A stretch of 37,820 nt of DNA from a virus. The stretch is taken from IMG/VR virus record IMGVR_UViG_3300037285_000140, positions 1-37,820 of that record. One strand, 5' to 3'. The notes beneath the pieces were generated by a model. That model searched no databases, had not been told where the DNA came from, and worked only from the letters and a program-made list of their open reading frames with translations. The position numbers and the translations under genes were made by a program. Of this stretch, positions 6,647 to 37,820 are shown piece by piece (the stretch's first letter is position 1; each line of letters starts with the position of its first letter).

Positions 6647-8143
6647 ATGTCATACGTCGATGCAATGTTCGACCGGAACGCTGATGTAATTAGAGTTGTT
6701 GAGAGAACAGACAATGGCAAACGCAAGTTTGTTGACTATCCTGTAAAGTACACATTTTACTACGAAGACCCTAAAGGAAAGTACAAAAGTATATTTGGAG
6801 ATCCTTTAACTAAAATTGTTTGCAAGAGCACAAAAGACTATCGAAAAGAACTTGCAATAAATCGAGACAAGAAGTTATTTGAGTCCGATATTAATCCCAT
6901 ATTCCAGTGTCTAAGCGAAAACTATGAGAATCAAGACGCGCCCAAGCTGAATGTGTGTTTCTTTGACATCGAAACTGACTTTGATCCCGAAAGAGGATTC
7001 GCGCCACCATCGGATCCATTTATGGCAATTACGGCAGTTACAGTATACTTGCAATGGATAGACGCCCTTATCACTGTTGCAATGCCGCCCAAAGGGCTCC
7101 CAATGGACCAAGCCGAAGCAATGTGCAAGGAAAGATGGGGCGACCAAGTAATGTTGTTTCCTAACGATAAGGAAGGAAACGGCGAAAGAGAAATGCTCAA
7201 AGTGTTTCTAGAACTAATCGAAGATGCTGATATCATCAGCGGATGGAACAGCGAAGGATATGATGTTCCGTATACTACAAATCGTATATCGCGCATACTA
7301 AGCAAAAATGATACTAGAAAGTTTTCACTATGGGATCAACTCCCACGCAAGAGAGAATTTGAAAAGTATGGCAAGACTGCAGAAACTTTTGATTATTCTG
7401 GTCGCGTACACTTGGACAGCCTTGAACTGTATAGAAAATATACGTATGAAGAACGTCACACATATAGACTTGATGCAATTGGTGAAATGGAAATTGGCGA
7501 GAATAAAACTGTATACGAAGGCACACTGGATCAATTGTACAACAACGACTTTGAAAAGTTTATTGAATACAATCGACAAGATACTGCATTGCTGGACAAG
7601 CTGGACAAGAAACTACGGTTTATTGATCTAGCTAATGAAATTGCACACGACAACACAGTGTTATTGCAAACTACAATGGGTGCAGTTGCAGTTACCGAAC
7701 AAGCAATTATCAATGAGTCGCACAGGCGCGGCATGCAAGTTCCAAACAGACGCAAGCACGAAGGCAACACACAAGCTGCCGGTGCATACGTAGCGTATCC
7801 TAAAAAAGGATTGCATCAATCTGTAGGATCAATGGACCTTAACTCGCTGTATCCAAGTGTAATTAGAGCACTCAACATGGCACCAGAAAGTATTATTGGG
7901 CAACTTCGCCCAATAATGACAGACGAAATGGTTCACAATGCAATGACGTTGCAGAAAAAATCATTTGCTGCGGCATGGGAAGGTCATTTTGGTACACTAG
8001 AATATGCAGCCGTAATGGAAAAGCGTAGAGATATTGACATTACTATTGACTGGGAAGACGGGCGCAGTGATGTGTTGAGTGCTGCCGAAGTAAACAGTGT
8101 TGTATTCGACAGTAACATGCCCAATATTTACTCACGAGTTTGA
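6647..8143 (+). CDS. 43: DNA polymerase gp43, N-terminal part (exonuclease and start of palm)
   Basis: 498 residues of a family B DNA polymerase. The 3'-5' exonuclease motifs are intact: Exo I FFDIETDF (about 105), Exo II IISGWNSEGYDVPY (about 197), Exo III FIEYNRQDTALLD (about 307). Polymerase motif A MDLNSLYPSVIRALN (about 398) is also present. The frame then runs into TGA at 8141-8143, while homologous sequence continues in the +1 frame (IFTHEFESVIPGLLKRWYSER). This piece lacks motifs B and C and cannot be a complete polymerase alone. Either the gene is truly split here, or a +1 frameshift restores it, or the assembly has an indel. T4-like phages with split gene 43 exist. The start has the strong site GTGGAG and a candidate autoregulatory hairpin. 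Confidence 0.9.
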   Translation: MSYVDAMFDRNADVIRVVERTDNGKRKFVDYPVKYTFYYEDPKGKYKSIFGDPLTKIVCKSTKDYRKELAINRDKKLFESDINPIFQCLSENYENQDAPKLNVCFFDIETDFDPERGFAPPSDPFMAITAVTVYLQWIDALITVAMPPKGLPMDQAEAMCKERWGDQVMLFPNDKEGNGEREMLKVFLELIEDADIISGWNSEGYDVPYTTNRISRILSKNDTRKFSLWDQLPRKREFEKYGKTAETFDYSGRVHLDSLELYRKYTYEERHTYRLDAIGEMEIGENKTVYEGTLDQLYNNDFEKFIEYNRQDTALLDKLDKKLRFIDLANEIAHDNTVLLQTTMGAVAVTEQAIINESHRRGMQVPNRRKHEGNTQAAGAYVAYPKKGLHQSVGSMDLNSLYPSVIRALNMAPESIIGQLRPIMTDEMVHNAMTLQKKSFAAAWEGHFGTLEYAAVMEKRRDIDITIDWEDGRSDVLSAAEVNSVVFDSNMPNIYSRV

Positions 8144-8822
8144 ATCTGTTATTCCTGGTTTATTAAAGAGGTGGTACTCAGAACGTAAGGAATTACAAAA
8201 AAGGTTAAAGAAAGCAATTGATGCAAAGAACGAAGCAGAAATTGTGTTCTGGGACAAGCGCCAGTTGGTAAAGAAGATTAACCTTAACTCGCTGTATGGT
8301 GCTATTCTTAATCCAGGTTGTAGATTCTTTGACAAGCGCATCGGACAATCAACTACATTAACTGGTAGACAGATTGTTAAGCATATGAGTGCAAAGGTCA
8401 ACGAAATTATTACAGGCGAATATGATCATATAGGCAAGGCTGTTATTTACGGCGACACTGACTCGTGTATAGCAGATTCGGTAATCGAGACTTCATTAGG
8501 AGATATGACCATTGAAAGCCTATTCAATAGGCTGGAAATTAAAACTAAAAATGGAGACAAGGAATACGCACACGACGACGATGTAATGGTAATGTCATAC
8601 GATAGAGAACGCAACGAACCATATATGGGTCATATTAATTATGTGTATCGCCACAAAGTCTCCAAGGATTTATATGAAATTGAGGATTTAGACGGGAATA
8701 TAGTTACAGTAACCGAAGATCATTCAGTAATGGTCGAACGCAACGGTGAATTAATAGAAGTTAAACCTCAGGAAATCGACGAAGGCGATATTATAATAAC
8801 ACTTAATATTCATCATACCTGA
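8097..8822 (+). CDS. 43: DNA polymerase gp43, middle part fused to N-terminal split intein
   Basis: The +1 frame continuation of gp43. It carries the palm/fingers segment with motif B KKINLNSLYGAILNPG and motif C YGDTD. At the latter point the sequence turns into an intein N-half (8463 onward) and ends at TGA 8820-8822. A GTG at 8097 could start an independent polypeptide, overlapping the N-terminal part by 47 bases, but no good ribosome binding site precedes it. Functional polymerase requires protein trans-splicing with the C-terminal part encoded at 9812-10894. Confidence 0.85.
   Translation: MLYSTVTCPIFTHEFESVIPGLLKRWYSERKELQKRLKKAIDAKNEAEIVFWDKRQLVKKINLNSLYGAILNPGCRFFDKRIGQSTTLTGRQIVKHMSAKVNEIITGEYDHIGKAVIYGDTDSCIADSVIETSLGDMTIESLFNRLEIKTKNGDKEYAHDDDVMVMSYDRERNEPYMGHINYVYRHKVSKDLYEIEDLDGNIVTVTEDHSVMVERNGELIEVKPQEIDEGDIIITLNIHHT
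8463..8819 (+). other. N-terminal split intein in polymerase motif C
   Basis: The intein starts within YGDTDS. Taking the TCG Ser at 8463 as residue 1 places the block A Asp-Ser (SCIADSVIE) at the usual positions 5-6 and gives a spliced YGDTD/SVYFS, the normal motif C. The Cys at 8466 is the alternative first residue. Block B is VTVTEDHSVMV, with the TxxH motif. A stop follows after about 119 residues with no endonuclease domain fused. Confidence 0.88.
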
Positions 8823-8828
8823 TAAATA
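8821..8828 (+). promoter_or_regulatory. Candidate late promoter GATAAATA before the homing endonuclease
   Basis: The box overlaps the stop of the N-intein frame and lies 33 bases before the endonuclease ATG, which has its own AAAGGA ribosome binding site. Late expression of a homing endonuclease is also known in T4. Confidence 0.6.
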
Positions 8829-8861
8829 CTATGGAGCAAGCACCGTAAGTAAAGGAATAAT

Positions 8862-9815
8862 ATGCCAAAATGTCTAGAATGTGGATTTGAAGCAAGTAGA
8901 TTGCAGTGGACCCACTTTAAATATAACTGTACAGGACGGTTTGCTTCAGGAAAAGAATATAAAGGTATCTACCCTGACGCAAAACTAGTCGACGATAAAT
9001 TAGCAAAAAAAACCGCTGTTACAAAATCAAACCTAATCAAAAAATACGGCGATCAGGAAGGAAACGAAAGGTGGACATCTTATATAACTAAGCAAGCATA
9101 TAGTAACACGTTCGAATCTAAACTCAAATCGCACGGGTGGACAAGATCAGAATTCGACGACTATAACAATAGCCGAGCTTGTACATTAGAAAATTTAATT
9201 GTTAGGCATGGAGAAGAACTTGGAATATTAAAATGGGAAGAATATGTCGAGAGACAGAGATATACTACAAGTATAGAATATTTTGTAAGTAAATATGGTA
9301 ACAAAGGTGAGTTAAAATGGAATCAATACTGCAAAGATAGAGGAAATTCACAGAATATAGAATTTATAAAACATAAATACAATCTGTCGCAGCCAGAAGC
9401 CGAGGCGTTGCTGGGGAATCGATATAGTAATAGATTTACCTCTAACGCTGAACAAACATTTTTACACAACATAGAAAAACTTATCGGAAAAGTACCGTAC
9501 AGTATAAACAGCAAACAGTATTGTATATGGTCTAATGAGTTGTCTGCTCCGTTGTTCTATGATTTAACGCACAGTGAGAAAAAGAAGATCATAGAATACA
9601 ATGGAGATTACTGGCACTGCAATCCTGAAAAATATAATTCAGATTTTATCATTAAACAATCAGGAGTAACAGCAAAAGAAGTATGGTCTAGAGATAAAAT
9701 TAAATTAGAAGAAGCAAAAAAACGTGGATTTGATGTAATGGTAGTGTGGGATAGACACTACACAGAAAATACTAAACTAGTAGAACAACAAATATTAAAA
9801 TGGTGGAACAAATGA
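8862..9815 (+). CDS. Vsr-like (EDxHD-type) homing endonuclease inside the fractured polymerase gene
   Basis: 317 residues. An N-terminal zinc-finger-like segment (C4, C7, H18, C23) precedes three imperfect repeats of the form KYGxxEGxxKWxxYxxxQ (residues about 57-83, 111-137, 138-165), probably DNA-binding. The C-terminal nuclease resembles Vsr-type folds: AEQTF (E197), LFYDLTH (D234), IIEYNGDYWHCNP (H252), and SRDKIKLEEAKKRGFDVMVVW (D278). This E-D-H-D set is that of the endonuclease family known to sit between split-intein halves in fractured genes. It should cut intein-less polymerase alleles at motif C and so spread the intein cassette. The ATG at 8862 has an AAAGGA site; the stop overlaps the next start. 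Confidence 0.88.
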   Translation: MPKCLECGFEASRLQWTHFKYNCTGRFASGKEYKGIYPDAKLVDDKLAKKTAVTKSNLIKKYGDQEGNERWTSYITKQAYSNTFESKLKSHGWTRSEFDDYNNSRACTLENLIVRHGEELGILKWEEYVERQRYTTSIEYFVSKYGNKGELKWNQYCKDRGNSQNIEFIKHKYNLSQPEAEALLGNRYSNRFTSNAEQTFLHNIEKLIGKVPYSINSKQYCIWSNELSAPLFYDLTHSEKKKIIEYNGDYWHCNPEKYNSDFIIKQSGVTAKEVWSRDKIKLEEAKKRGFDVMVVWDRHYTENTKLVEQQILKWWNK

Positions 9816-10039
9816 AAGATAAATTAATCAAGATATTATTAGCAAACACTAAAGAAGAAGTTGCTGTTTCTGTAAAGGACTTCCTGGATGGAGTTGGATC
9901 TAAGAAACTAAGTTTATCCCGAGGTAAAGTTAAAAGAGTTACCAAAGTTCGAAAAGCTAACGACGAATACGTATACGATATCGGAATGAAAAATAGTAAT
10001 CAGCCTTGGTTCTTTGCTAACAACATCCTAATCCATAAC
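9812..10039 (+). other. C-terminal split intein
   Basis: 76 codons. Blocks F and G read DEYVYDIGMKNSNQPWFFANNILIHN in two adjoining parts, with penultimate His and terminal Asn, followed by Ser as the +1 nucleophile. The half is longer than the 35-45 residues typical of C-inteins, so the break lies where an endonuclease domain would be in a full intein. Confidence 0.88.
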
Positions 10040-10894
10040 TCAGTCTACTTTAGTGCATACAACATGTTAAAAGACGATATCGATGCAGGAAAAGTACCCT
10101 GGGATACTGACAGCGTTATTAAACTGTATGATCAGATAGCCGACGAGACCAATAAGTCGTTCCCGGCGTTTATGGGTGCATCATTTCATTGCCCAAAGAA
10201 GCGTGCCGAAGTTATTGCAGCAGGTAGAGAAATTGTTGCAGAAGCAGGACTGTTCATCACCAAGAAAAGATATGCAGTACTAGTAGTTGACAACGAAGGT
10301 GAGCGCAAGGATGTTGACGGTAAGCCAGGAAAGATCAAAGCGCTAGGACTTGATCTTAAAAGATCAGATACTCCAGTGTTTATGCAAAAGTTCCTAAGTG
10401 AATTACTGACAATGGTTCTTCTGAAGCATCCTGAGCATGACGTGCTCGATGCAATTACCAAGTTTAGAAGAGAATTCAAGGATCGTCCTGGATACGAAAA
10501 AGGTTCGCCAAAACGTGCAAACAACATTCAAGCGTACCAACGCAAAGAAGCAAGTTTAGGAAGAGCAAATATGCCCGGACACGTTCGAGCAAGTATCAAC
10601 TGGAATACACTCAAGCGCATGAATGGTGACAAACACTCGCAGGAGATTGTAGACGGTATGAAGGTTATTGTTTGTAAGGTAAAAGCAAATCCGCTAGGAT
10701 ATACCAGTGTTGCTTTTCCAACAGACGAACTGCGCATGCCAAATTGGTTCAAAGAGTTGCCATTTGACGATAATGCAATGGAGTCAACCATCATTGACAA
10801 CAAGCTAGATAACCTGATTGGTGTGTTAAACTATGATTTACAAAGCACACTATTGAACAATACATTTAGCTCACTATTTGATTTTGGGGACTAG
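9812..10894 (+). CDS. 43: C-terminal split intein fused to DNA polymerase gp43 C-terminal part
   Basis: 360 residues. The first 76 form the C-intein, ending in NILIHN, followed by +1 Ser and the extein SVYFSAYN, which completes motif C. The remainder is the palm and thumb of gp43 (KKRYAVLVV, GLDLKRSDTP), ending in SSLFDFGD, which resembles the T4 gp43 C-terminal clamp-binding peptide. I chose ATG 9812 (ATGA overlap with the endonuclease stop, GGTGGA ahead) over ATG 9800. Together with the frame at 8097 this gives a trans-spliced polymerase; the clamp it should bind is encoded at 12860. Confidence 0.9.
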   Translation: MKDKLIKILLANTKEEVAVSVKDFLDGVGSKKLSLSRGKVKRVTKVRKANDEYVYDIGMKNSNQPWFFANNILIHNSVYFSAYNMLKDDIDAGKVPWDTDSVIKLYDQIADETNKSFPAFMGASFHCPKKRAEVIAAGREIVAEAGLFITKKRYAVLVVDNEGERKDVDGKPGKIKALGLDLKRSDTPVFMQKFLSELLTMVLLKHPEHDVLDAITKFRREFKDRPGYEKGSPKRANNIQAYQRKEASLGRANMPGHVRASINWNTLKRMNGDKHSQEIVDGMKVIVCKVKANPLGYTSVAFPTDELRMPNWFKELPFDDNAMESTIIDNKLDNLIGVLNYDLQSTLLNNTFSSLFDFGD

Positions 10895-23620: not shown

Positions 23621-23628
23621 TATTTATC
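23621..23628 (-). promoter_or_regulatory. Candidate late promoter for the HNH gene
   Basis: GATAAATA on the minus strand, 32 bases before the HNH ATG at 23589. Its expected start point leaves the AGAGG ribosome binding site in the message. Confidence 0.55.
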
Positions 23629-23642
23629 AATCTGGATGCTGT

Positions 23643-23650
23643 GATAAATA
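23643..23650 (+). promoter_or_regulatory. Candidate late promoter before the folE remnant and queE
   Basis: GATAAATA 21 bases before the ATG at 23671, with GAGGAA as ribosome binding site in between. Confidence 0.55.
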
Positions 23651-27486: not shown

Positions 27487-27491
27487 CATAA

Positions 27492-27533
27492 GTGCTCCGT
27501 TATAGATAAATATATACGTATATAACGGAGCAC
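27492..27533 (+). promoter_or_regulatory. RBS-masking hairpin with late promoter in its loop
   Basis: GTGCTCCGTTATA (27492-27504) and TATAACGGAGCAC (27521-27533) form a perfect 13-bp stem. The loop contains GATAAATA (27505-27512). The right arm holds the GGAG ribosome binding site, 8 bases before the ATG at 27539. Late transcripts would start near 27518, without the left arm, leaving the site free. Confidence 0.8.
27505..27512 (+). promoter_or_regulatory. Candidate late promoter GATAAATA
   Basis: Located in the loop of the hairpin 27492-27533; the predicted start point lies just before the right arm. Confidence 0.65.
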
Positions 27534-27538
27534 GCCTT

Positions 27539-27829
27539 ATGAGTCGACCAAAGCCAACAATATTGTTAGAATCTATTAACAGCCAAACTTACAGATGTGA
27601 GCAAGTTCTAGAAGCTGCCGGAATATGGGCAGTCTTTTATAAAGGGTTACCCTTTAACTTAAAAAGTTCAAATTCTCTAACACATTATCCTGGTCCTAAA
27701 TATAAAAAAACTAGTTTCTCAAATCCCGGACACGCTTATAATTTAGCCAAGAAGCTTAACTCAACATTTAGATCAAGTGACTTTGCTGTGTTTGAATTGT
27801 CATCTACTATTAATGAAGTTAAAGAATGA
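27539..27829 (+). CDS. Hypothetical late protein
   Basis: 96 residues, basic, with SRPKPTILLESINSQTYRCEQVLEA at the N-terminus. No domain is recognised. The hairpin/late-promoter arrangement upstream predicts translation only from late transcripts. It overlaps the next gene by ATGA. Confidence 0.65.
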   Translation: MSRPKPTILLESINSQTYRCEQVLEAAGIWAVFYKGLPFNLKSSNSLTHYPGPKYKKTSFSNPGHAYNLAKKLNSTFRSSDFAVFELSSTINEVKE

Positions 27830-29400: not shown

Positions 29401-29455
29401 TGAGTCAAGTGGGCAGGATCATCCTGCCCACTTTCTCTTACTAGAGGTTGACTCA
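29401..29455. repeat. Outer 8-bp inverted repeat around the terminator
   Basis: TGAGTCAA (29401-29408) and TTGACTCA (29448-29455) are exact reverse complements enclosing the terminator hairpin. The right arm contains the -35 box of the next promoter. Confidence 0.75.
29409..29431 (+). terminator. Rho-independent terminator after the AAA ATPase gene
   Basis: GTGGGCAGGAT (29409-29419) pairs with ATCCTGCCCAC (29421-29431), a GC-rich hairpin followed by TTTCTCTT. It lies 10 bases after the ATPase stop. Confidence 0.75.
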
Positions 29456-29476
29456 CTGAAAGATAAATGTTACACT
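29448..29476 (+). promoter_or_regulatory. Sigma70-like promoter before the VWA gene
   Basis: TTGACT (29448-29453), a 17-base spacer, TACACT (29471-29476). A GATAAATG near-match to the late box lies in the spacer (29462-29469). Confidence 0.6.
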
Positions 29477-29503: not shown

Positions 29504-30799
29504 ATGTCCGTTAAACAAACTGCATCCAACGCAAAAAAGAACTGGGCACCAAACCCGGATCTTACACCAGAAGAGCTTAAAGTTATGGGAGAAGATGTAA
29601 TGGATCGCATTATCATCGCCCGGCTTGGTCTCCTTCTGCGGCATCCGTTCTTTGGCAACATGGCAACTCGACTGCGCGTCGAAGCGGCTGATGACTGGTG
29701 CCCAACTGCTGCTACTGACGGACGCCACTTGTACTACAATACCCAGTTTTTTGCATCAATGACCAACAAAGAAATTGAGTTTGTTATTGCACACGAAGTT
29801 CTGCATTGTGTGTTTGATCACCTTGGACGACGCGAAGAACGCCACCCAAAATTGTACAATATTGCTGCTGACTATATTGTCAACAACTTACTTGTACGTG
29901 ATCGCATCGGACATAAGCCAAAGCTAATTGACTGTTTTCAAGACTTCAAGTACGACAAGCTGACTTCCGAGGAAGTGTATGATCTGTTGTTTGATGAAGC
30001 CGAAAAGAACGGCCAGAGTGCAATTGATGCGCTTGGTGAAATGCTCGACGAGCACCTCGACTGGGGTCCTAGTGAAGATGGCGAAGAAGGCGTCGGCGAA
30101 GGCAAAGACGGAAAAGGCAAAGGTCGGCCGCGTTACAACGACGACGAAATGCGTGCTATCAAAGACGAGATCAAAGAAGCTATGCTACAAGCGCATCAGG
30201 CTTCGGGCGCCGGTAACACACCAGGCGAGATCACTCGCATGATCAAGGAACTGACTGAGCCCAAAATGAACTGGCGTGAGCTGCTTCGTCAGCAGATTCA
30301 GAGCACTGTTCGCAGTGACTATTCATTTAGTCGCCCAAGTCGTAAAGGTCAGTCTACTGGCGCAATTCTTCCAGGTATGATGTTTGCAGAAACAATTGAC
30401 CTTTGCATATGTCTTGATATGTCAGGTTCGATTGGCGACGAGCAGGCACGCGATTTCTTAAGCGAGATCAAAGGTATTATGGAAGAATACCAAGACTACC
30501 AGATCAAGCTATGGTGCTTTGACACTAAAGTCTACAACGAGCAGGACTTTAGTGCAGATGGTGGCGATGATTTGATGGACTACAACATCATGGGCGGTGG
30601 CGGCACCGACTTTATGGTCAACTGGGATTACATGAAAGAGCACGGTATCGAGCCTAAGAAGTTTATCATGTTTACAGACGGGTATGCCTGGAACAGCTGG
30701 GGTGATGAGAATTACTGTGATACAATCTTTATTATTCACAGCCACCATGATAAGACAGTCGAAGGGCCGTTTGGTGTAACTGCACACTACGAGGCATAA
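29504..30799 (+). CDS. VWA-like protein with HExxH metallopeptidase-like domain
   Basis: 431 residues. The N-terminal domain carries HEVLH (H97, E98, H101), the zincin motif, within IEFVIAHEVLHCVFDH. A charged low-complexity linker (about 180-215) leads to a C-terminal VWA-like domain with LCICLDMSGSIGDEQ, whose DxSxS is the metal-ion-dependent adhesion site, and GGGGTDF. This matches the DUF2201-type partner of MoxR AAA+ ATPases. The pair probably remodels or cleaves a protein target, which is unknown. Confidence 0.82.
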   Translation: MSVKQTASNAKKNWAPNPDLTPEELKVMGEDVMDRIIIARLGLLLRHPFFGNMATRLRVEAADDWCPTAATDGRHLYYNTQFFASMTNKEIEFVIAHEVLHCVFDHLGRREERHPKLYNIAADYIVNNLLVRDRIGHKPKLIDCFQDFKYDKLTSEEVYDLLFDEAEKNGQSAIDALGEMLDEHLDWGPSEDGEEGVGEGKDGKGKGRPRYNDDEMRAIKDEIKEAMLQAHQASGAGNTPGEITRMIKELTEPKMNWRELLRQQIQSTVRSDYSFSRPSRKGQSTGAILPGMMFAETIDLCICLDMSGSIGDEQARDFLSEIKGIMEEYQDYQIKLWCFDTKVYNEQDFSADGGDDLMDYNIMGGGGTDFMVNWDYMKEHGIEPKKFIMFTDGYAWNSWGDENYCDTIFIIHSHHDKTVEGPFGVTAHYEA

Positions 30800-30800
30800 C

Positions 30801-31100
30801 ATGAACATGAAAAGCGTTAATCCACTTAACATTCATGAAGTAAGGAGGACATTATTTTGTCCTCCTTACTTCGAGAAAGCTCCGTTGCCGTGTGCAACCG
30901 GTGGGCCATCGACGCGAGGAAGCGGTGTTGTAAATAGACTAATTGTTAGTTGGGTAAATGATAATCTAACAGGTCGTTTCTATATTGGTTTATCTGTTGA
31001 TGTTACTAGCAAATTTCCTGTTCGTACAGAGACATATATTGCATTTGAAAATCCTAGCGAATTGACTATTTTTATGCTATCGTGTCCACATCTGAATTAA
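30801..31100 (+). CDS. Hypothetical protein, start region inside a long hairpin
   Basis: 99 residues from ATG 30801 (GAGG 9 bases ahead). The first 25 codons include a perfect 15-bp hairpin, so the N-terminal sequence may not be protein-constrained, but no in-frame downstream start is convincing. The body (VVNRLIVSWVNDNLTGRFYIG) is beta-rich. No domain recognised. Confidence 0.5.
   Translation: MNMKSVNPLNIHEVRRTLFCPPYFEKAPLPCATGGPSTRGSGVVNRLIVSWVNDNLTGRFYIGLSVDVTSKFPVRTETYIAFENPSELTIFMLSCPHLN
30837..30872 (+). repeat. Perfect 15-bp hairpin
   Basis: GAAGTAAGGAGGACA (30837-30851) and TGTCCTCCTTACTTC (30858-30872) pair fully around TTATTT. The left arm contains a consensus AAGGAGG Shine-Dalgarno sequence that would be buried. 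No U-tract follows. Confidence 0.85.
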
Positions 31101-31450: not shown

Positions 31451-32202
31451 TGACTAGCCTAAAACATATTGGAAGATTAAAAAATAACAAGCGCCGTGCA
31501 ATTATTGCATACAGAACTGTGCCAGATGCACCTACTTATGCATTAGTGGTGCTCACTGAATCACTCCCAGCAGACGAGCACGACACGTTAATGAGATTAG
31601 TTGAGTCTTCTACTGGACAACTTGCACACGAACTAGCAGATGCAATGTATCGTACAGTTATGCCCGATGGCAGAAACATGCTAGCAGCGTTGCACGCAAC
31701 TGGACAACTACGAAAAGTAGCCACCAACGAGATTGAGATGACGCCGGACACCCACACCAGCATCGGTCTTGATGAACTTAACGAAATTATTGCACAGCAA
31801 AAAGGTGTTGCAATCGAAGATCTTGCAATAAAGCCTATTATTAGCGAAGAAGTTAAACAGGCTGCCGAAAAGAAGAAACTGCAAGACGATGCTGACCTAG
31901 CTGCTATGCAGGCAACCAGCGACGACCCAATTGTACACGCAATGAATCTAGCTATAGGAGAAAAGAATCCTGGATTACTCGCTGAGGTTGATCCAGTTAA
32001 AATGGTCGAAGCGGCGCCAGAGGTGTCCAATGCCGAGCTAGCTGCACAACTACGTGACCATGCAGACCAAATGGTTAAGACTGCGGAAATGCTTAGAAAG
32101 CAGGCCGAAACTGTTTCACCTAATGTAATCAAAGCTGCACCAACAAAGCGTCGCGCGCCTGCAGTGAAGAAGCCAGTAGCCAAGAAAGCAACAAGTGCCT
32201 AA
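31450..32202 (+). CDS. Conserved T4-like marine-phage protein
   Basis: 250 residues. The N-terminal 115 residues (LKHIGRLKNNKRRAIIAYR, LPADEHDTLMRLVES, DGRNMLAALHATGQL) are of a conserved type with unknown function. The middle and C-terminal parts are Ala/Glu/Lys-rich helices, ending in a basic Pro/Lys/Ala tail that could contact nucleic acid. It overlaps the next gene. Confidence 0.7.
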   Translation: MTSLKHIGRLKNNKRRAIIAYRTVPDAPTYALVVLTESLPADEHDTLMRLVESSTGQLAHELADAMYRTVMPDGRNMLAALHATGQLRKVATNEIEMTPDTHTSIGLDELNEIIAQQKGVAIEDLAIKPIISEEVKQAAEKKKLQDDADLAAMQATSDDPIVHAMNLAIGEKNPGLLAEVDPVKMVEAAPEVSNAELAAQLRDHADQMVKTAEMLRKQAETVSPNVIKAAPTKRRAPAVKKPVAKKATSA

Positions 32203-32512
32203 AAAATCAAAAAAGGTGTCTATCAAAGGAGACGATTATTGGGATCCAATTTTTGACTCCATTGATATGCAATACCTTCCTCTTGAGTATCTAGACAAGA
32301 TTCTCCTTACGTTCGAAGATGGAACACAATGGGATATTGATCTTAAAGATAGTCGGCAGAAACAAACTGTTGACCAGATCGAAACCAGCCTTGATGAGTT
32401 GTTCGAGGAATACGATCCGTATATTGAAGAAATTGATTTTCGACTAGACATGGAACGTGTTAAAAAAGATCTGACAACAAGAGTTTTTAGATTCCTTAAA
32501 TTAAATAAATGA
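32195..32512 (+). CDS. Small acidic conserved protein
   Basis: 105 residues starting at GTG 32195, overlapping the upstream gene by 8 bases. IDMQYLPLEYLDKILLTFEDGTQWDIDL is of a conserved phage type. A basic N-terminus is followed by an acidic body. Confidence 0.6.
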   Translation: MPKKSKKVSIKGDDYWDPIFDSIDMQYLPLEYLDKILLTFEDGTQWDIDLKDSRQKQTVDQIETSLDELFEEYDPYIEEIDFRLDMERVKKDLTTRVFRFLKLNK

Positions 32513-32513
32513 T

Positions 32514-32565
32514 ATTTCTCCTAGAGTGATAAATATATGTAACTATAATATCACCTAGGAGAAAT
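32514..32565 (+). promoter_or_regulatory. RBS-masking hairpin with late promoter inside
   Basis: ATTTCTCCTAGAGTGATA (32514-32531) pairs with TATCACCTAGGAGAAAT (32549-32565), 17 base pairs with one bulged A. The right arm contains the AGGAG ribosome binding site of the tail-fibre gene. GATAAATA (32528-32535) spans the end of the left arm and the loop, so late transcripts starting near 32541 would lack the left arm. Confidence 0.8.
32528..32535 (+). promoter_or_regulatory. Candidate late promoter GATAAATA for the tail fibre
   Basis: Lies within the RBS-masking hairpin, 36 bases before the ATG at 32571. Confidence 0.65.
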
Positions 32566-32570
32566 ACAAC

Positions 32571-33392
32571 ATGTCATTGAGATTAAGACGCGGCGTCGAT
32601 GCCGAGAGAGCAGCAATTGTCTTTGATGAAGGCGAACTTGTTTATACAACAGACATCAAAGAACTTTATGCAGGTGATGGTGCTACTGCTGGAGGAATAC
32701 TTGTTTCTAGTGCGCAGATTCCCGGAGCATTGATTCAAAATCTAGACCTTGGTGAAAACGATATAGTAGGCACAGGAAATATTGACATTAGTGGTAATGT
32801 GACTGCTAACAGGCTTATAGGATCAGTATTAGGAGATCTATCAGGATCTGTATTTGCTGACGATTCAACATTGATTATTAATGGTCAAACATCCGTTATT
32901 ACAGGCGATCTTGTTGGAAGTGTTGTGTCCGATGATAATAATAATTTTCTTTATGCCGATACAAATAGTACACCATTAAATATTTTTAAATATAGCGGAA
33001 CGCTTACTAACCCTACTGATTCAGCAGACTTTGCAAAAATAGGCATAAGATTTGGATCATATAATACTGCTGCTGCTGGCTATGTTACCGAATCGTTGAT
33101 TTATTCGTATCATCAAACAGCAGGAGGAGGGTTAATAGCATTAGCGCCGGTGGCAGCAGATAACACAACATTTTTTGAGACTGCACTTGAATTAGATGGT
33201 AATGCACAAACTATGTCAGTTTCCGCCCCAAATGGAACTAGTTTTAATGGTGCTATTACTCCAGGTGTGTATGCAGATGACACTGCACGAGATACTGCGA
33301 TTACTACTCCGCTAGCAGGAATGATGGTATTTAACACTACTGGTACTAAGTTTCAAGGATACACCGGAGTAGCGTGGGTAAACTTAAACTAA
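32571..33392 (+). CDS. Tail-fibre-like protein
   Basis: 273 residues. The start SLRLRRGVDAERAAIVFDEGELVYTTDIKELYAGDGATAGG is given here as one continuous N-terminal domain in two overlapping motifs, LRLRRGVDAERAAIVFDEGE and YTTDIKELYAGDG, typical of short tail-fibre or tropism-determinant N-termini of marine phages. The middle is Gly/Asn/Ser-rich beta repeat. The end GMMVFNTTGTKFQGYTGVAW is a common fibre C-terminal element. Host binding is the likely role. Its late promoter and hairpin fit a virion protein. Confidence 0.8.
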   Translation: MSLRLRRGVDAERAAIVFDEGELVYTTDIKELYAGDGATAGGILVSSAQIPGALIQNLDLGENDIVGTGNIDISGNVTANRLIGSVLGDLSGSVFADDSTLIINGQTSVITGDLVGSVVSDDNNNFLYADTNSTPLNIFKYSGTLTNPTDSADFAKIGIRFGSYNTAAAGYVTESLIYSYHQTAGGGLIALAPVAADNTTFFETALELDGNAQTMSVSAPNGTSFNGAITPGVYADDTARDTAITTPLAGMMVFNTTGTKFQGYTGVAWVNLN

Positions 33393-33917
33393 TATTTCCC
33401 AAACATTTTGATTGGTATAGAATATATCGGCATTAGATTCTATTAATTTACATTGGCCTGCTGGGGCTAGTACCTTCGCAACAAAGTTATTCATTCGAAC
33501 ACTTCCAGGTTCAGCGGACACGTTAGTTGTAAAGATAAGTGCTTTTGCTCCCTGGCTTCTTGCATGAGCGACCTGGTATGGCAATATAAATCCCCAATTA
33601 AAGTCGTTTTTCATAATTCTAAAATTACCAGGAGCTCTGGCTCTGTATTCTTTTAACGTAGCAGTGCGTACCATAAGTCGCCAACAGTCTTTTTTATAAG
33701 TATCGTAGCTGTGACAGCCGCTTATACTTACTATTTTATTGTCTGTGTAGGTATACCACCAAGCCTCATTTCCCCAGAGGCCGATTTTCATTGCAGCAAC
33801 AGACTCGTTATTTTTCATACCTTGCGTCTTGCACTGATCAGCAAAGGTAAATAATGTGTCAGGAACACTATTTATGTTTAATTCTTTAATTTCAAAATCT
33901 GTAATACGTGATAACAT
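33384..33917 (-). CDS. Conserved protein, possible GNAT-like acyltransferase
   Basis: 177 residues on the minus strand, converging with and overlapping the tail-fibre stop by 9 bases. The layout (GNEAWWYTYTDNKIVSISGC, RLMVRTATLKEYR, FILPYQVAHARSQGAKALIFTTN) resembles a GNAT fold with its central strand pair and CoA-binding helix, but a clear R/QxxGxG/A loop is not seen. The ATG at 33917 lies 10 bases from the divergent start at 33928. Confidence 0.6.
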   Translation of the reverse strand: MLSRITDFEIKELNINSVPDTLFTFADQCKTQGMKNNESVAAMKIGLWGNEAWWYTYTDNKIVSISGCHSYDTYKKDCWRLMVRTATLKEYRARAPGNFRIMKNDFNWGFILPYQVAHARSQGAKALIFTTNVSAEPGSVRMNNFVAKVLAPAGQCKLIESNADIFYTNQNVWEILV

Positions 33918-33927
33918 ACTTATACTT

Positions 33928-34590
33928 ATGCCAAGTAAGACAGTACAGGACGACTTATTGATCTTGATAAGTCACGGTAGCGGCGGCGTGGGCGCAGCCG
34001 AATGGGGTGCCGCTAAGTTTTTTTTAAAAAACGGATATAAAGTAGGACTACTTGATTATTTTTCAAAATGGAATATAGATAAGCTTTTTTGGAGTTACCA
34101 AGATCATAACAGTGATGCGCACACTGTATCGTTTAATACAATACTTACTAATATTAATTTTCCAACAGAAAAAATTGTACATATAGGATTTAGTCTAGGC
34201 GGATACCTTGGACTAATAAATAGTAACAAGTTTTATAAAAACTTCTGCTTCTACCCTGGTATATTAGGATATCTCGGGCAGCAAAACTTTGATAATACTA
34301 CTGTTATTATTGCCGAAAATGATAATTGGTGTACATTTAACAACACGTTTAACAACACCTGGTTTGCCAAAGATTGCTATCATGGATTTATGATACCTAA
34401 TAAAAATAAGGATATACCTGTTGCAAAATATAACTTTCCTGCGTCAATGTCGCATGGCCAATATCTAAATTTAATGCCAAATCACACCTATTTAACAAGT
34501 ATGTACGGACATACTGAAGAAATAATTAGGTTGCAATCCAACGACAGATATAGTATAGTATACTTAAACAGGATACTAGAATCATTATGA
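33928..34590 (+). CDS. Alpha/beta hydrolase
   Basis: 220 residues from ATG 33928; longer frames would run into the divergent gene. ISHGSGGVGAAEW (14-26) forms the oxyanion loop, GFSLGGYLG carries nucleophile S89, and IIAENDNWC and SMSHGQY are candidate Asp and His positions. The form is like dienelactone-hydrolase-type esterases. It is coupled by ATGA to the ATP-grasp gene, so the two may process the same small molecule. Confidence 0.75.
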   Translation: MPSKTVQDDLLILISHGSGGVGAAEWGAAKFFLKNGYKVGLLDYFSKWNIDKLFWSYQDHNSDAHTVSFNTILTNINFPTEKIVHIGFSLGGYLGLINSNKFYKNFCFYPGILGYLGQQNFDNTTVIIAENDNWCTFNNTFNNTWFAKDCYHGFMIPNKNKDIPVAKYNFPASMSHGQYLNLMPNHTYLTSMYGHTEEIIRLQSNDRYSIVYLNRILESL

Positions 34591-35906
34591 ATATCATTAT
34601 TCTAACACACGAACGAAGTCTTAATAAAACAGAAGGGTTGTTAAATGCGCTAGACGGTTATAATGTACACTTGGTACTAGATACTTCATTGAGTGACGTT
34701 GATAGGCCGTACGTTAAACTTGCAAATAATATTATTGTATCAAAGGGGTTTGACATAATTGACATTGTTAGTAAGATACCAACATGTGACAAAATATGGT
34801 GCGCAAGCGAAAACTTGCTACCGGTACAAAGTCAACTCGAGAGTTACTACGGCATTAATAATATAACACCATTTGCCGCCGAGGTGTTAAGTAATAAGCA
34901 ACTGTTTGATGACTTTTGTAGATCGATAGGATTATCACAGTTTGTTCCTCAAAGCATTACTCCGACGTTCCACAGTCAATTAGATATTTTTAAAAATAGA
35001 GAAATATTTACCAAGCCGGATATTGGAACTGGTAGTAATGTATTCTTTCCAGGCGCTGATCAAAATGCTCCTGATATCGAATATCGTCGATGGAATAACA
35101 AGTATCATTTTCTGCAACATCTCAAGGACACTAGTTCACATAAAGACTTTTTTAAGTTTAATAAACACGGAATACACACTGCACGATTTAATTCCAAAGC
35201 TTGTAAAATTATGGTACAGGAATATCACTGGACCGAAGAGCCGTGCGTTAGTCCAATTGGCATAGTGAAAGACGGGATCGTTAACATACTATGCTACATA
35301 AAAGTAAGTAAGGTCAAGTACGGCGACAAGCTAGACGTAAATAAAAATCCAACCCAACTACATTCAAATAGTAAGAACAGCGATATTGCAAAAGATATTG
35401 CTGTGTGGAGTGTGTCTGCAGACGAAGTAGACCCAACTAAAGATCAAAAAATGAGATTCTTTTTACAAACCATTGTAGACAAATTACAGATTAAAGATTT
35501 ATTTTTTGCAGGGCCCGACTTTCATATTCATAGTAATAACTTAACAGCAATTGATTTTAATCCGCGGTCGGGGCAGTTTATGAATATTTTAGATAAAGCT
35601 AATGGATACACAATATTTTCGGCGTTGCTACAGGGTAAAGACGTAACTATTAAAAATAAATTATTATGGGGATGTGCAATGCTAGATTCGGGCACAATTA
35701 CTAATGTTAAAAACTTGGACGCAGTATCTCCGTTTTTTAATTATCAAAATACAGAAATTTCTGCTGGCACTGTTATTCCTAAGTTTCAAAACCTTCAAAA
35801 TAAAAAGTTTAATGTTAACTTAGACATTATAGGTAGCAACGAGCAAGAGCTGTTTGACCGATATAAAGGAGTCAACCAGCTCTTGCAAAGTTGCATTACT
35901 TACTAA
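34587..35906 (+). CDS. ATP-grasp superfamily enzyme
   Basis: 439 residues. An N-terminal pre-ATP domain is followed by SNKQLFDDFCRSIGL (start of the ATP-grasp fold), EIFTKPDIGTGSNVFF (ATP lysine and Gly-rich loop), MVQEYHW (hinge) and AIDFNPRSGQF (metal-binding Asp/Asn). Such enzymes join a carboxylate to an amine or thiol through an acyl phosphate. Substrates are unknown. It is coupled to an alpha/beta hydrolase gene. It ends 11 bases inside the convergent tctC-like gene. Confidence 0.78.
   Translation: MNIIILTHERSLNKTEGLLNALDGYNVHLVLDTSLSDVDRPYVKLANNIIVSKGFDIIDIVSKIPTCDKIWCASENLLPVQSQLESYYGINNITPFAAEVLSNKQLFDDFCRSIGLSQFVPQSITPTFHSQLDIFKNREIFTKPDIGTGSNVFFPGADQNAPDIEYRRWNNKYHFLQHLKDTSSHKDFFKFNKHGIHTARFNSKACKIMVQEYHWTEEPCVSPIGIVKDGIVNILCYIKVSKVKYGDKLDVNKNPTQLHSNSKNSDIAKDIAVWSVSADEVDPTKDQKMRFFLQTIVDKLQIKDLFFAGPDFHIHSNNLTAIDFNPRSGQFMNILDKANGYTIFSALLQGKDVTIKNKLLWGCAMLDSGTITNVKNLDAVSPFFNYQNTEISAGTVIPKFQNLQNKKFNVNLDIIGSNEQELFDRYKGVNQLLQSCITY
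35844..35885. repeat. Near-perfect 15-bp inverted repeat at a convergent gene junction
   Basis: CAAGAGCTGTTTGAC (35844-35858) and GTCAACCAGCTCTTG (35871-35885) pair at 14 of 15 positions around a 12-base loop. It lies at the 3' end of the ATP-grasp gene beside the convergent tctC end and could act as a two-way terminator, though no U-tract follows. Confidence 0.5.
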
Positions 35907-36663
35907 AGTTTAATACAGCTTCATTAAAAATTGCAAGGTTGTCTTCGGTTCCTCCGACATAAGTTGTTGATCCCTTAAACATGTCTAACCACTCAACGCT
36001 TTTACTTAATGTAGCTGTTGTGGCACGTAGCTGTGCCGTGATAGATACGTCTGTATTTACAGTTGTAATTACATCAACAAAGCGGAAACCTAGGTCGCCG
36101 GCACTGCTAAACGCAATACATCTTGTTGAACTGTCTTCTTGAATTACAGCCTGACGTGATGTGATAGTAAACACTGTATCTGCATCGCCTGCAATATAAC
36201 CTGTTGTTGTGCTGCCGCTGCCGTCAAATGGTACAACTACAAAGTCAATGTTGTGTGCTGAACCAAGGTCTGCCAAAAAGTTAGCAACTGGTTCGCTGCC
36301 CCATGTAGCTAATTTGACTTGTTGACCTGACATATCAGATAGCGAAGTAAACGTTCTGCTACACATCATTGTTTCGTATGTCATCAATGCAACTAAGTTC
36401 TCTGCATCAATTAATGGACTTTGTAAGTTTGTATCTCCAGGCCATTCACTGCTCCACATAGTAAGAATGTTGTCTCCTTGCATATACGAAAATGCGGTTA
36501 CTGGATTATTAGCTTGTACAAATGTATGATCAATAGTTTCGCCGATTGTTGATAGTACTTGTCTAAACGCTCCAGCTTCGCTGCCAGGGTTAACGATCTG
36601 CATTTCTGCAGTAGCAGTTGTTGCTATTAAAATTGCTGCTACTGTTGTAATTAAAGTCTTCAT
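35896..36663 (-). CDS. tctC: TctC/Bug-like periplasmic solute-binding protein
   Basis: 255 residues. A signal peptide (MKTLITTVAAILIATTATA, cleavage before EMQIV) marks export. The body has the TctC pattern: a start strand MQIVNPGSEAGA, SLSDMSGQQVKLATWGSEP, VPFDGSGSTTTGYIAGDADTVFT. It is about 65 residues shorter than usual TctC proteins. It would capture a carboxylate for the TctA-like permease encoded 9 bases upstream in the same operon. The minus-strand ribosome binding site TAGGAG is strong. Confidence 0.75.
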   Translation of the reverse strand: MKTLITTVAAILIATTATAEMQIVNPGSEAGAFRQVLSTIGETIDHTFVQANNPVTAFSYMQGDNILTMWSSEWPGDTNLQSPLIDAENLVALMTYETMMCSRTFTSLSDMSGQQVKLATWGSEPVANFLADLGSAHNIDFVVVPFDGSGSTTTGYIAGDADTVFTITSRQAVIQEDSSTRCIAFSSAGDLGFRFVDVITTVNTDVSITAQLRATTATLSKSVEWLDMFKGSTTYVGGTEDNLAIFNEAVLNFSK

Positions 36664-36672
36664 GTTGTTCTC

Positions 36673-37818
36673 CTAAGATATGATAACGATTGCCCGGATT
36701 AGGCTTTCGTAGAATAGATCACTAAGAAAAAATCCGTATATTGCTGGACTTGTATCCCAATGTCTGAGTGTGTATCCTAGTACTGATAGACACAGTATAC
36801 ATATAAACATCCAACTATGTATTGGAAAAGTTATAATACTCACTGTACTAATAGTAGTTAGTATCAAGAGATTTACCATATTTCTATAAGTTTTATAAAA
36901 ATATGCTACTCTAGCTAACAAATTAAAGCCATACCAACTTAATACTAAACAAATAAAAGTTACAAACGGTATAATATATATTATTTTATGTAATTGATTA
37001 ATTGTATTTTCAGCAGTAAAGACAAAGCCGTTCTCTAACATGAGATAATAGATTAAGACTTCACTGCCTGTGATAGGTATAGCTAAGATAAGCAAAGGAA
37101 GTAATGAACTAAGTGCGCCACTGTTGTTCGCTGCCTCTGCGGCTGCTATGCTCTTTAATACAGGCTTACGAAAAAATCGTTTGACTATATTGGCACTTGC
37201 ATAGCTGCCAAGAATGTTTGTTACACCCGGTATAAGGCCGCACCAAAAACCAATAAAGCTTCCTAGTAAAGCAGGTATTATAATACCTTTACCAACTGCA
37301 AATGTATTTATGCTCCGTTCCTTTGTTATGGACAAATCACGGTTAGTTGCAAGTTCGGGAACTATATACAATCCAACCATTATGCTTGCAAAAGGTATGC
37401 CCAGTGCTAAGTAAGAGTTGCCAAATGTAGCAAAACTATCAAAGGTAATAGGGTCAATTCCTACTCTTGCAAGTAGCCCGCCGAGCCCAAAGAGTGCAAG
37501 TGTAATTATCTTATTTTGTTTTGTAAGAAATGTAATCATTGTGATTGCACTAAAGATTACAATAGTCTGAACAACACTGTTATAGAATTTAAAAATATGC
37601 AATATATTAGGCAATACAGTAATAAACACGATTAATGCAAATGCTACACCTATACTACTGCTTATTGCATTGCTACTCACTGCAAGGCTGCCGAATCCTT
37701 TACGATACAATCGGTGGCCTTCCCTAGCAGTGCTAATTGCTGTTGCATCGCCGGGGATGCCGTATAATATTGCTGTAACGCTATTTGTGTAGTTGGCCGT
37801 GATTAGTACGGCAACATA
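36673..37818 (-). CDS. tctA: TctA-like tripartite tricarboxylate transporter permease, 5' end outside window
   Basis: 381 residues are visible, and the frame stays open through the window edge at 37818; a TTG at 37710 is not the start. TNSVTAILYGIPGDATAISTAREGHRL is the first TctA signature (GIPG followed by a charged G-x-x-L), given here in two parts. The second half has FWCGLIPGVTNILGSYA and AAAEAANNSGALSSLLPLLI, the mirrored signature of the family. Eight or more hydrophobic segments are visible. The canonical partner TctB is not between this gene and tctC; it could lie upstream, outside the window. Confidence 0.85.
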   Translation of the reverse strand, partial: YVAVLITANYTNSVTAILYGIPGDATAISTAREGHRLYRKGFGSLAVSSNAISSSIGVAFALIVFITVLPNILHIFKFYNSVVQTIVIFSAITMITFLTKQNKIITLALFGLGGLLARVGIDPITFDSFATFGNSYLALGIPFASIMVGLYIVPELATNRDLSITKERSINTFAVGKGIIIPALLGSFIGFWCGLIPGVTNILGSYASANIVKRFFRKPVLKSIAAAEAANNSGALSSLLPLLILAIPITGSEVLIYYLMLENGFVFTAENTINQLHKIIYIIPFVTFICLVLSWYGFNLLARVAYFYKTYRNMVNLLILTTISTVSIITFPIHSWMFICILCLSVLGYTLRHWDTSPAIYGFFLSDLFYESLIRAIVIIS

Positions 37819-37820
37819 GT

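Follow-up and report, generated by a model that had tools for sequence, protein, structure and literature searches.

A predicted late promoter within a ribosome-site-masking hairpin ahead of a tail-fibre-like gene in a phage fragment with large uncultured relatives

The window analysed here, a 37.8-kb IMG/VR fragment (37,820 nt in full), carries a tail-fibre-like gene whose Shine-Dalgarno (SD) sequence lies in the right arm of a long hairpin and whose putative late promoter box overlaps the left arm. This arrangement very probably constitutes a promoter-in-hairpin timing switch like those of T4 genes e, soc, 49 and I-TevI, by which the tail-fibre-like protein would be made only from the late promoter. 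We infer the transcription start site, the timing and the translation block from the sequence. The device itself is known; the novelty lies in the lineage, in the gene, in how deep the co-variation runs and in the indication that jumbo phages use it at more than one gene. The features on which the argument draws are these.

27488-27541, plus strand: second putative device, around the GATAAATA box at 27505-27512, with left arm (CATAA)GTGCTCCGTTATA and right arm TATAACGGAGCAC(...TTATG)
27539-27829, plus strand: second putatively regulated gene, 96 aa, MSRPKPT..., conserved in PA5oct, Phosso, Atu_ph07 and SCTP-2
29448-29476, plus strand: sigma70-like promoter, TTGACT-17-TACACT with TG before the second hexamer, conserved in two relatives
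32195-32512, plus strand: upstream ORF, 105 aa, whose stop codon TGA (32510-32512) abuts the left arm
32513-32531, plus strand: left (anti-SD) arm, TATTTCTCCTAGAGTGATA, complementary to 32549-32566 with one bulged base
32528-32535, plus strand: putative late promoter box GATAAATA, of the NATAAATA type, its GATA forming the inner end of the left arm
32539-32543, plus strand: expected late transcription start, at about 32541, predicted from T4 spacing (PMC3014915) and lying 3' of the left arm
32549-32566, plus strand: right arm, TATCACCTAGGAGAAATA, containing the SD sequence AGGAG at 32557-32561
32571-33392, plus strand: putatively regulated gene, 273 aa, MSLRLRRG..., with a tail-fibre/receptor-binding-like N-terminus

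The earlier note on this DNA had described a 17-bp stem at 32514-32571; the hairpin stands, but its dimensions had to be corrected to 18 bp (12+6), with one bulged base in the left arm, and to a span of 32513-32566. AGGAG, nine bases 5' of the ATG at 32571, is fully paired. The perfect 12-bp part of the stem is the sole inverted repeat detected within 32300-32800, and the window as a whole has six places with short-looped, perfect 12-mer inverted repeats, compared with a mean of 0.17 in Markov shuffles. Folding of 32480-32620 as RNA yields -36.4 kcal/mol (z = -4.7). When the left arm, represented by the 24 bases 5' of the box only, was shuffled, none of 5000 versions paired equally well with the right arm. 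The late box is so placed that an RNA starting at the expected site would lack the left arm; the ribosome site of an RNA beginning at 32541 is free of predicted structure, and the predicted folding energy is -24.2 kcal/mol for the read-through RNA versus 0 for the late RNA. Together with the co-variation of the arms in relatives described below, these predictions uphold the proposal that read-through RNA buries AGGAG while late RNA leaves the site open. An Rfam search returned sub-threshold chance matches only. Elsewhere in the window, a long perfect palindrome (AAGTAAGGAGGAC...GTCCTCCTTACTT, 30837-30872) lies near the start of ORF 30801-31100, and strong GC-rich hairpins at 77-109 (TTCACAGCGCATCA..TGATGCGCTGTGA) and 558-590 (ATCCTGGGGA..TCCCCAGGAT) lie in or beside predicted ORFs.

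The gene had initially been called a tail-fibre gene, a label that we soften to tail-fibre-like: its N-terminus has this character, and the basis of the label is a borderline match to Mtd_N (25.7 bits, below the Pfam cut-off of 26.3); tblastn gave a weak match to an annotated tail fibre of GP100. Close relatives of the window are large uncultured contigs, one of which (G003, 251 kb) encodes homologues of the T4 late sigma factor gp55 (219690-220601, E 2.9e-10) and of gp44, gp46, gp47 and gp43. In the window itself, which is a fragment, gp55 was not found. No homologue of the sliding clamp gp45 was found with a single T4 gp45 sequence as query; a search with the gp45 family PF09116 was uninformative, its controls being silent too. 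At the DNA level, the hairpin region had no match among cultured phages. The window encodes a T4-type DNA polymerase, matches to which are split over three ORFs (6647-8143, 8097-8822 and 9800-10894); an unrelated ORF (8862-9815) with its own GATAAATA at 8821 lies between them, and 6647-10894 has the look of a polymerase split up around an inserted gene. Beyond the tail-fibre-like gene (33384-37820), synteny with both large relatives is lost, and the right end of the window carries a TctA tricarboxylate-transporter gene (Pfam 4e-36), which is unusual in phage.

The identification of GATAAATA as the late box, proposed from the single sequence, is strengthened by its distribution and by the gp55 homologue in the relative. 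Among 361 predicted gene starts from the window and two relatives, it is the top over-represented 8-mer at positions -55 to -12 (13 seen, 0.59 expected), and other NATAAATA forms are likewise enriched upstream of gene starts. Seven GATAAATA boxes occur in the window, two of them within hairpins that mask a ribosome-binding site (32528 and 27505). The first base of the box is C, T or G in hairpin-free relatives of the tail-fibre-like gene and G in most hairpin-bearing ones, because there GATA pairs with TATC of the right arm. Since the first base varies where the hairpin is absent and GATA is part of the stem in most cases where it is present, the promoter box itself would be better written NATAAATA than GATAAATA. 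The T4-like cyanophages S-PM2 and Syn9 carry the same octamer before late genes, as NATAAATA promoters whose first base is free, although the parts of that account that deal with these promoters describe them without masking hairpins, unlike in the window (PMC2984593). At 23621-23650, two GATAAATA boxes lie back to back on opposite strands in a palindrome (GTATTTATC...GATAAATAC), flanked by an HNH-endonuclease-like gene on the minus strand and a QueE-like gene; this is a possible bidirectional late promoter.

Comparative evidence comes from 50 distinct upstream regions of related genes. The NATAAATA box is present in 47 of them, and 20 have a hairpin, counted as such when the stretch ending at the box and the stretch following the expected start form a duplex at least as stable as -15 kcal/mol; in 18 of these 20, each of the four core SD bases is paired. 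Arm pairs such as CCTAGGTGATA/TATCACCTAGG, CCTAGAGTGATA/TATCACTCTAGG, CCCCTAGTGTGATA/TATCACACTAGGGG and CTCCTAAGGTGATA/TATCACCTTAGGAG illustrate how far the sequences have diverged with pairing kept, several pair types being found at almost every stem position (at position -7, A-U 12 times, G-C four times, U-A twice and C-G once). G-U wobbles, with U on the left and G on the right, face an unchanged SD at its positions 0, 1 and 3. On average, a leader's own arms pair at -22.3 kcal/mol and swapped arms at -15.8; none of 200,000 arm-swap permutations paired as well as the own arms (84 of 40,320 when eight leaders only were used), a permutation figure that is weakened by shared ancestry, which the test does not fully remove and which leaves the compensatory pairs unaffected. 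In a MAFFT/RNAalifold consensus of eight leaders, single-base indels threw the left arm out of register and pairing came out too low, so pairs were tallied sequence by sequence. The compensatory changes point to selection maintaining the arms. The late RNAs of nearly all the related genes are almost without structure, and the hairpins are therefore confined to the read-through RNA. Many relatives have the box and no hairpin, which means that the hairpin is not required in all.

Beyond this family, a scan of public viral sequences for CTCC..GATAAATA..GGAG found a stem of at least 8 bp together with a start codon at 10 of 121 sites, compared with 0 of 121 for a scrambled box (Fisher p 0.002). 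The matches include GIY-YIG-like endonuclease genes, named from their N-terminal sequence only; ORFs of this kind with GATAAATA inside a hairpin masking the ribosome-binding site lie at L126 2309, L079 1273 (minus strand) and L084 10151, and homing endonuclease genes of the GIY-YIG class use the hairpin device in T4 (PMC2988022). Against the proposal, strong upstream duplexes in the three genomes also arise where there is no box, at 22 of 405 gene starts versus 4 of 26 with a box, some of these box-free gene starts being doubtful.

An inverted repeat over a promoter could also act as DNA, and the repeat here does overlap the -10 box. Were it the site of a dimeric regulator, with the RNA hairpin incidental, its dyad symmetry would likewise yield paired changes, and T4 I-TevI represses its own late promoter as well as using a hairpin (PMC2988022). 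However, a DNA operator fits poorly with the wobble pairs noted above, which face the unchanged SD at its positions 0, 1 and 3, and with a bulge confined to one arm. Relatives differ widely in loop length and in the sequence of the arms, the right arm is the SD in nearly every case, and at the second gene entirely different arms have taken over, unlike a protein site. We regard this explanation as improbable.

Translational coupling deserves about the same small credence. Ribosomes ending the upstream ORF at 32510-32512 would open the hairpin, and the gene would be co-translated with its neighbour instead of being switched by a late promoter; the left arm begins directly after the stop codon in the window and in relatives, and a terminating ribosome could briefly open the outer stem. 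The right arm with the SD, however, lies 37-54 nt past the stop, outside the ribosome footprint, and the late box sits where it would remove the left arm. The gap at T4 gene e is similarly small, with the left arm about 8 nt after the nudE stop, yet that gene is silenced about 100-fold (PMC3014915).

Slightly less credible still is a role at an operon end, as a transcription terminator, an RNase III site or an mRNA-stabilising hairpin. The stable 18-bp stem at a gene boundary would suit any of these, but no T-run follows the stem, the hairpin was not listed by the terminator scan, its right arm supplies the SD for the gene that follows and, given where the late box lies, late RNA would lack the hairpin. 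Finally, the idea that an ordinary promoter and SD happen to be flanked by pairing sequence, in whose favour AT-rich sequence and the commonness of CTCC/GGAG complementarity might speak, can practically be dismissed given 0/5000 shuffled left arms, 0/200,000 arm swaps and independent sequences in distant relatives.

A masking hairpin of the T4 kind presupposes an RNA that enters from upstream, and the window offers a candidate source. Between the AAA-ATPase and VWA genes, a terminator-like hairpin is followed by the extended -10 sigma70-like promoter (29407-29476 together), an arrangement kept in both relatives (TTGACT...TGTTACACT in the window; TTGACT...TGCTACAAT and TTGACA...TGTTATATT in the relatives). 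The pattern TTGAC...TG.TANNNT occurs 74 times on the coding strand of the large relative, compared with 12-34 times for scrambled forms. This promoter lies 3.1 kb upstream of the tail-fibre-like gene; the genes from it to 32512, including the upstream ORF (86% and 58% identity in the two relatives), are tightly packed, and the terminator scan found no convincing terminator between it and 32513. It is the likely source of read-through RNA, and its transcripts would be early. The protein encoded at 29504-30799, next to a MoxR-like AAA ATPase, is labelled an HNH endonuclease by PHROG (phrog_1314) and matches the Pfam DUF2201 metallopeptidase and VWA families; that PHROG assignment is probably mistaken. 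Also noticed were host-type early promoters in which the spacer between -35 and -10 pairs with the SD of the following gene (L156 near 11685, equivalent to G003 111185; G003 19400 and 53751); they were set aside as a class, early promoters embedded in such hairpins showing no excess over scrambled promoters (12/50 vs 3/16).

The second device lies further upstream, where the hairpin at 27488-27541 masks CGGAG, and possibly the ATG, of the gene at 27539-27829, with the box in the loop; 1 of 5000 shuffled left arms paired as well. In PA5oct and Phosso, just as in the window, the MSRPKPT gene has an annotated ATPase gene nearby. In relatives this gene shows the same logic with different arms, none of 100,000 arm-swap permutations of its leaders pairing as well. 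PA5oct, Phosso, Atu_ph07 and marine contigs combine, as does the device at 32513, a NATAAATA box with a hairpin whose left arm would be missing from late RNA. The arms flank or include the box in the three named phages, the PA5oct stem being modest (-9.8 kcal/mol). Most marine leaders, unlike the 32513 device, have arms of the form TATGCGTA.../...TACGCATATG, with the left arm just 3' of the box and the AUG, not the SD, in the right arm. They co-vary (TATGCGTA/TACGCATA, TATACGTA/TACGTATA, TATGTGTA/TACACATA), but their geometry is less certain as a masking device, since it hinges on the exact start nucleotide.

The precedent cited for this arrangement, T4 e and soc, is real, and the code used here also recovers T4 e, 49 and I-TevII. 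In T4 e, soc, 49, I-TevI/II/III and segB, and in Aeh1 mobE, a hairpin conceals the SD or AUG, its left arm contains or adjoins a late promoter, and the late RNA lacks that arm (PMC3014915, PMC2988022); for gene e, silencing of read-through RNA amounts to about 100-fold, with translation from the late RNA (PMC3014915). The device at 32513 shares with the T4 e type the late box at the left arm and an SD predicted to be hidden on read-through RNA only. It differs in its phage lineage, in serving a tail-fibre-like gene, in arms unrelated in sequence, in a stem of 18 bp versus about 11 bp (T4 e folded here) and in that GATA of the GATAAATA box is itself paired.

By analogy with T4, read-through RNA, whether begun at the sigma70-like promoter (29448) or at the late box (27505), would carry both arms and fold once the right arm emerges, hiding AGGAG so that no ribosome would start on the tail-fibre-like protein. 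Late in infection, a gp55-like sigma would direct polymerase to GATAAATA, RNA would start about 6 nt past the box, and AGGAG would be exposed for want of the left arm. Late read-through from 27505 is expected as well and would remain untranslated.

The T4 device has so far been studied on a handful of T-even genes. On balance, we favour with some reserve the view that promoter-in-hairpin masking forms a general level of gene-timing control in T4-superfamily jumbo phages, invented anew many times, with several genes per genome, fast turnover of arms, stable logic and a box that doubles as part of the hairpin, serving at once as DNA promoter and RNA lock. Co-variation keeps the device in uncultured relatives, and cultured jumbo phages of Pseudomonas, Agrobacterium and Sinorhizobium show it at a second gene, which suggests a widespread means of placing late genes in earlier operons without early protein. 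It also gives a sequence rule for spotting late promoters and late genes in phages known from metagenomes, and a laboratory phage such as PA5oct would allow the question to be tested.
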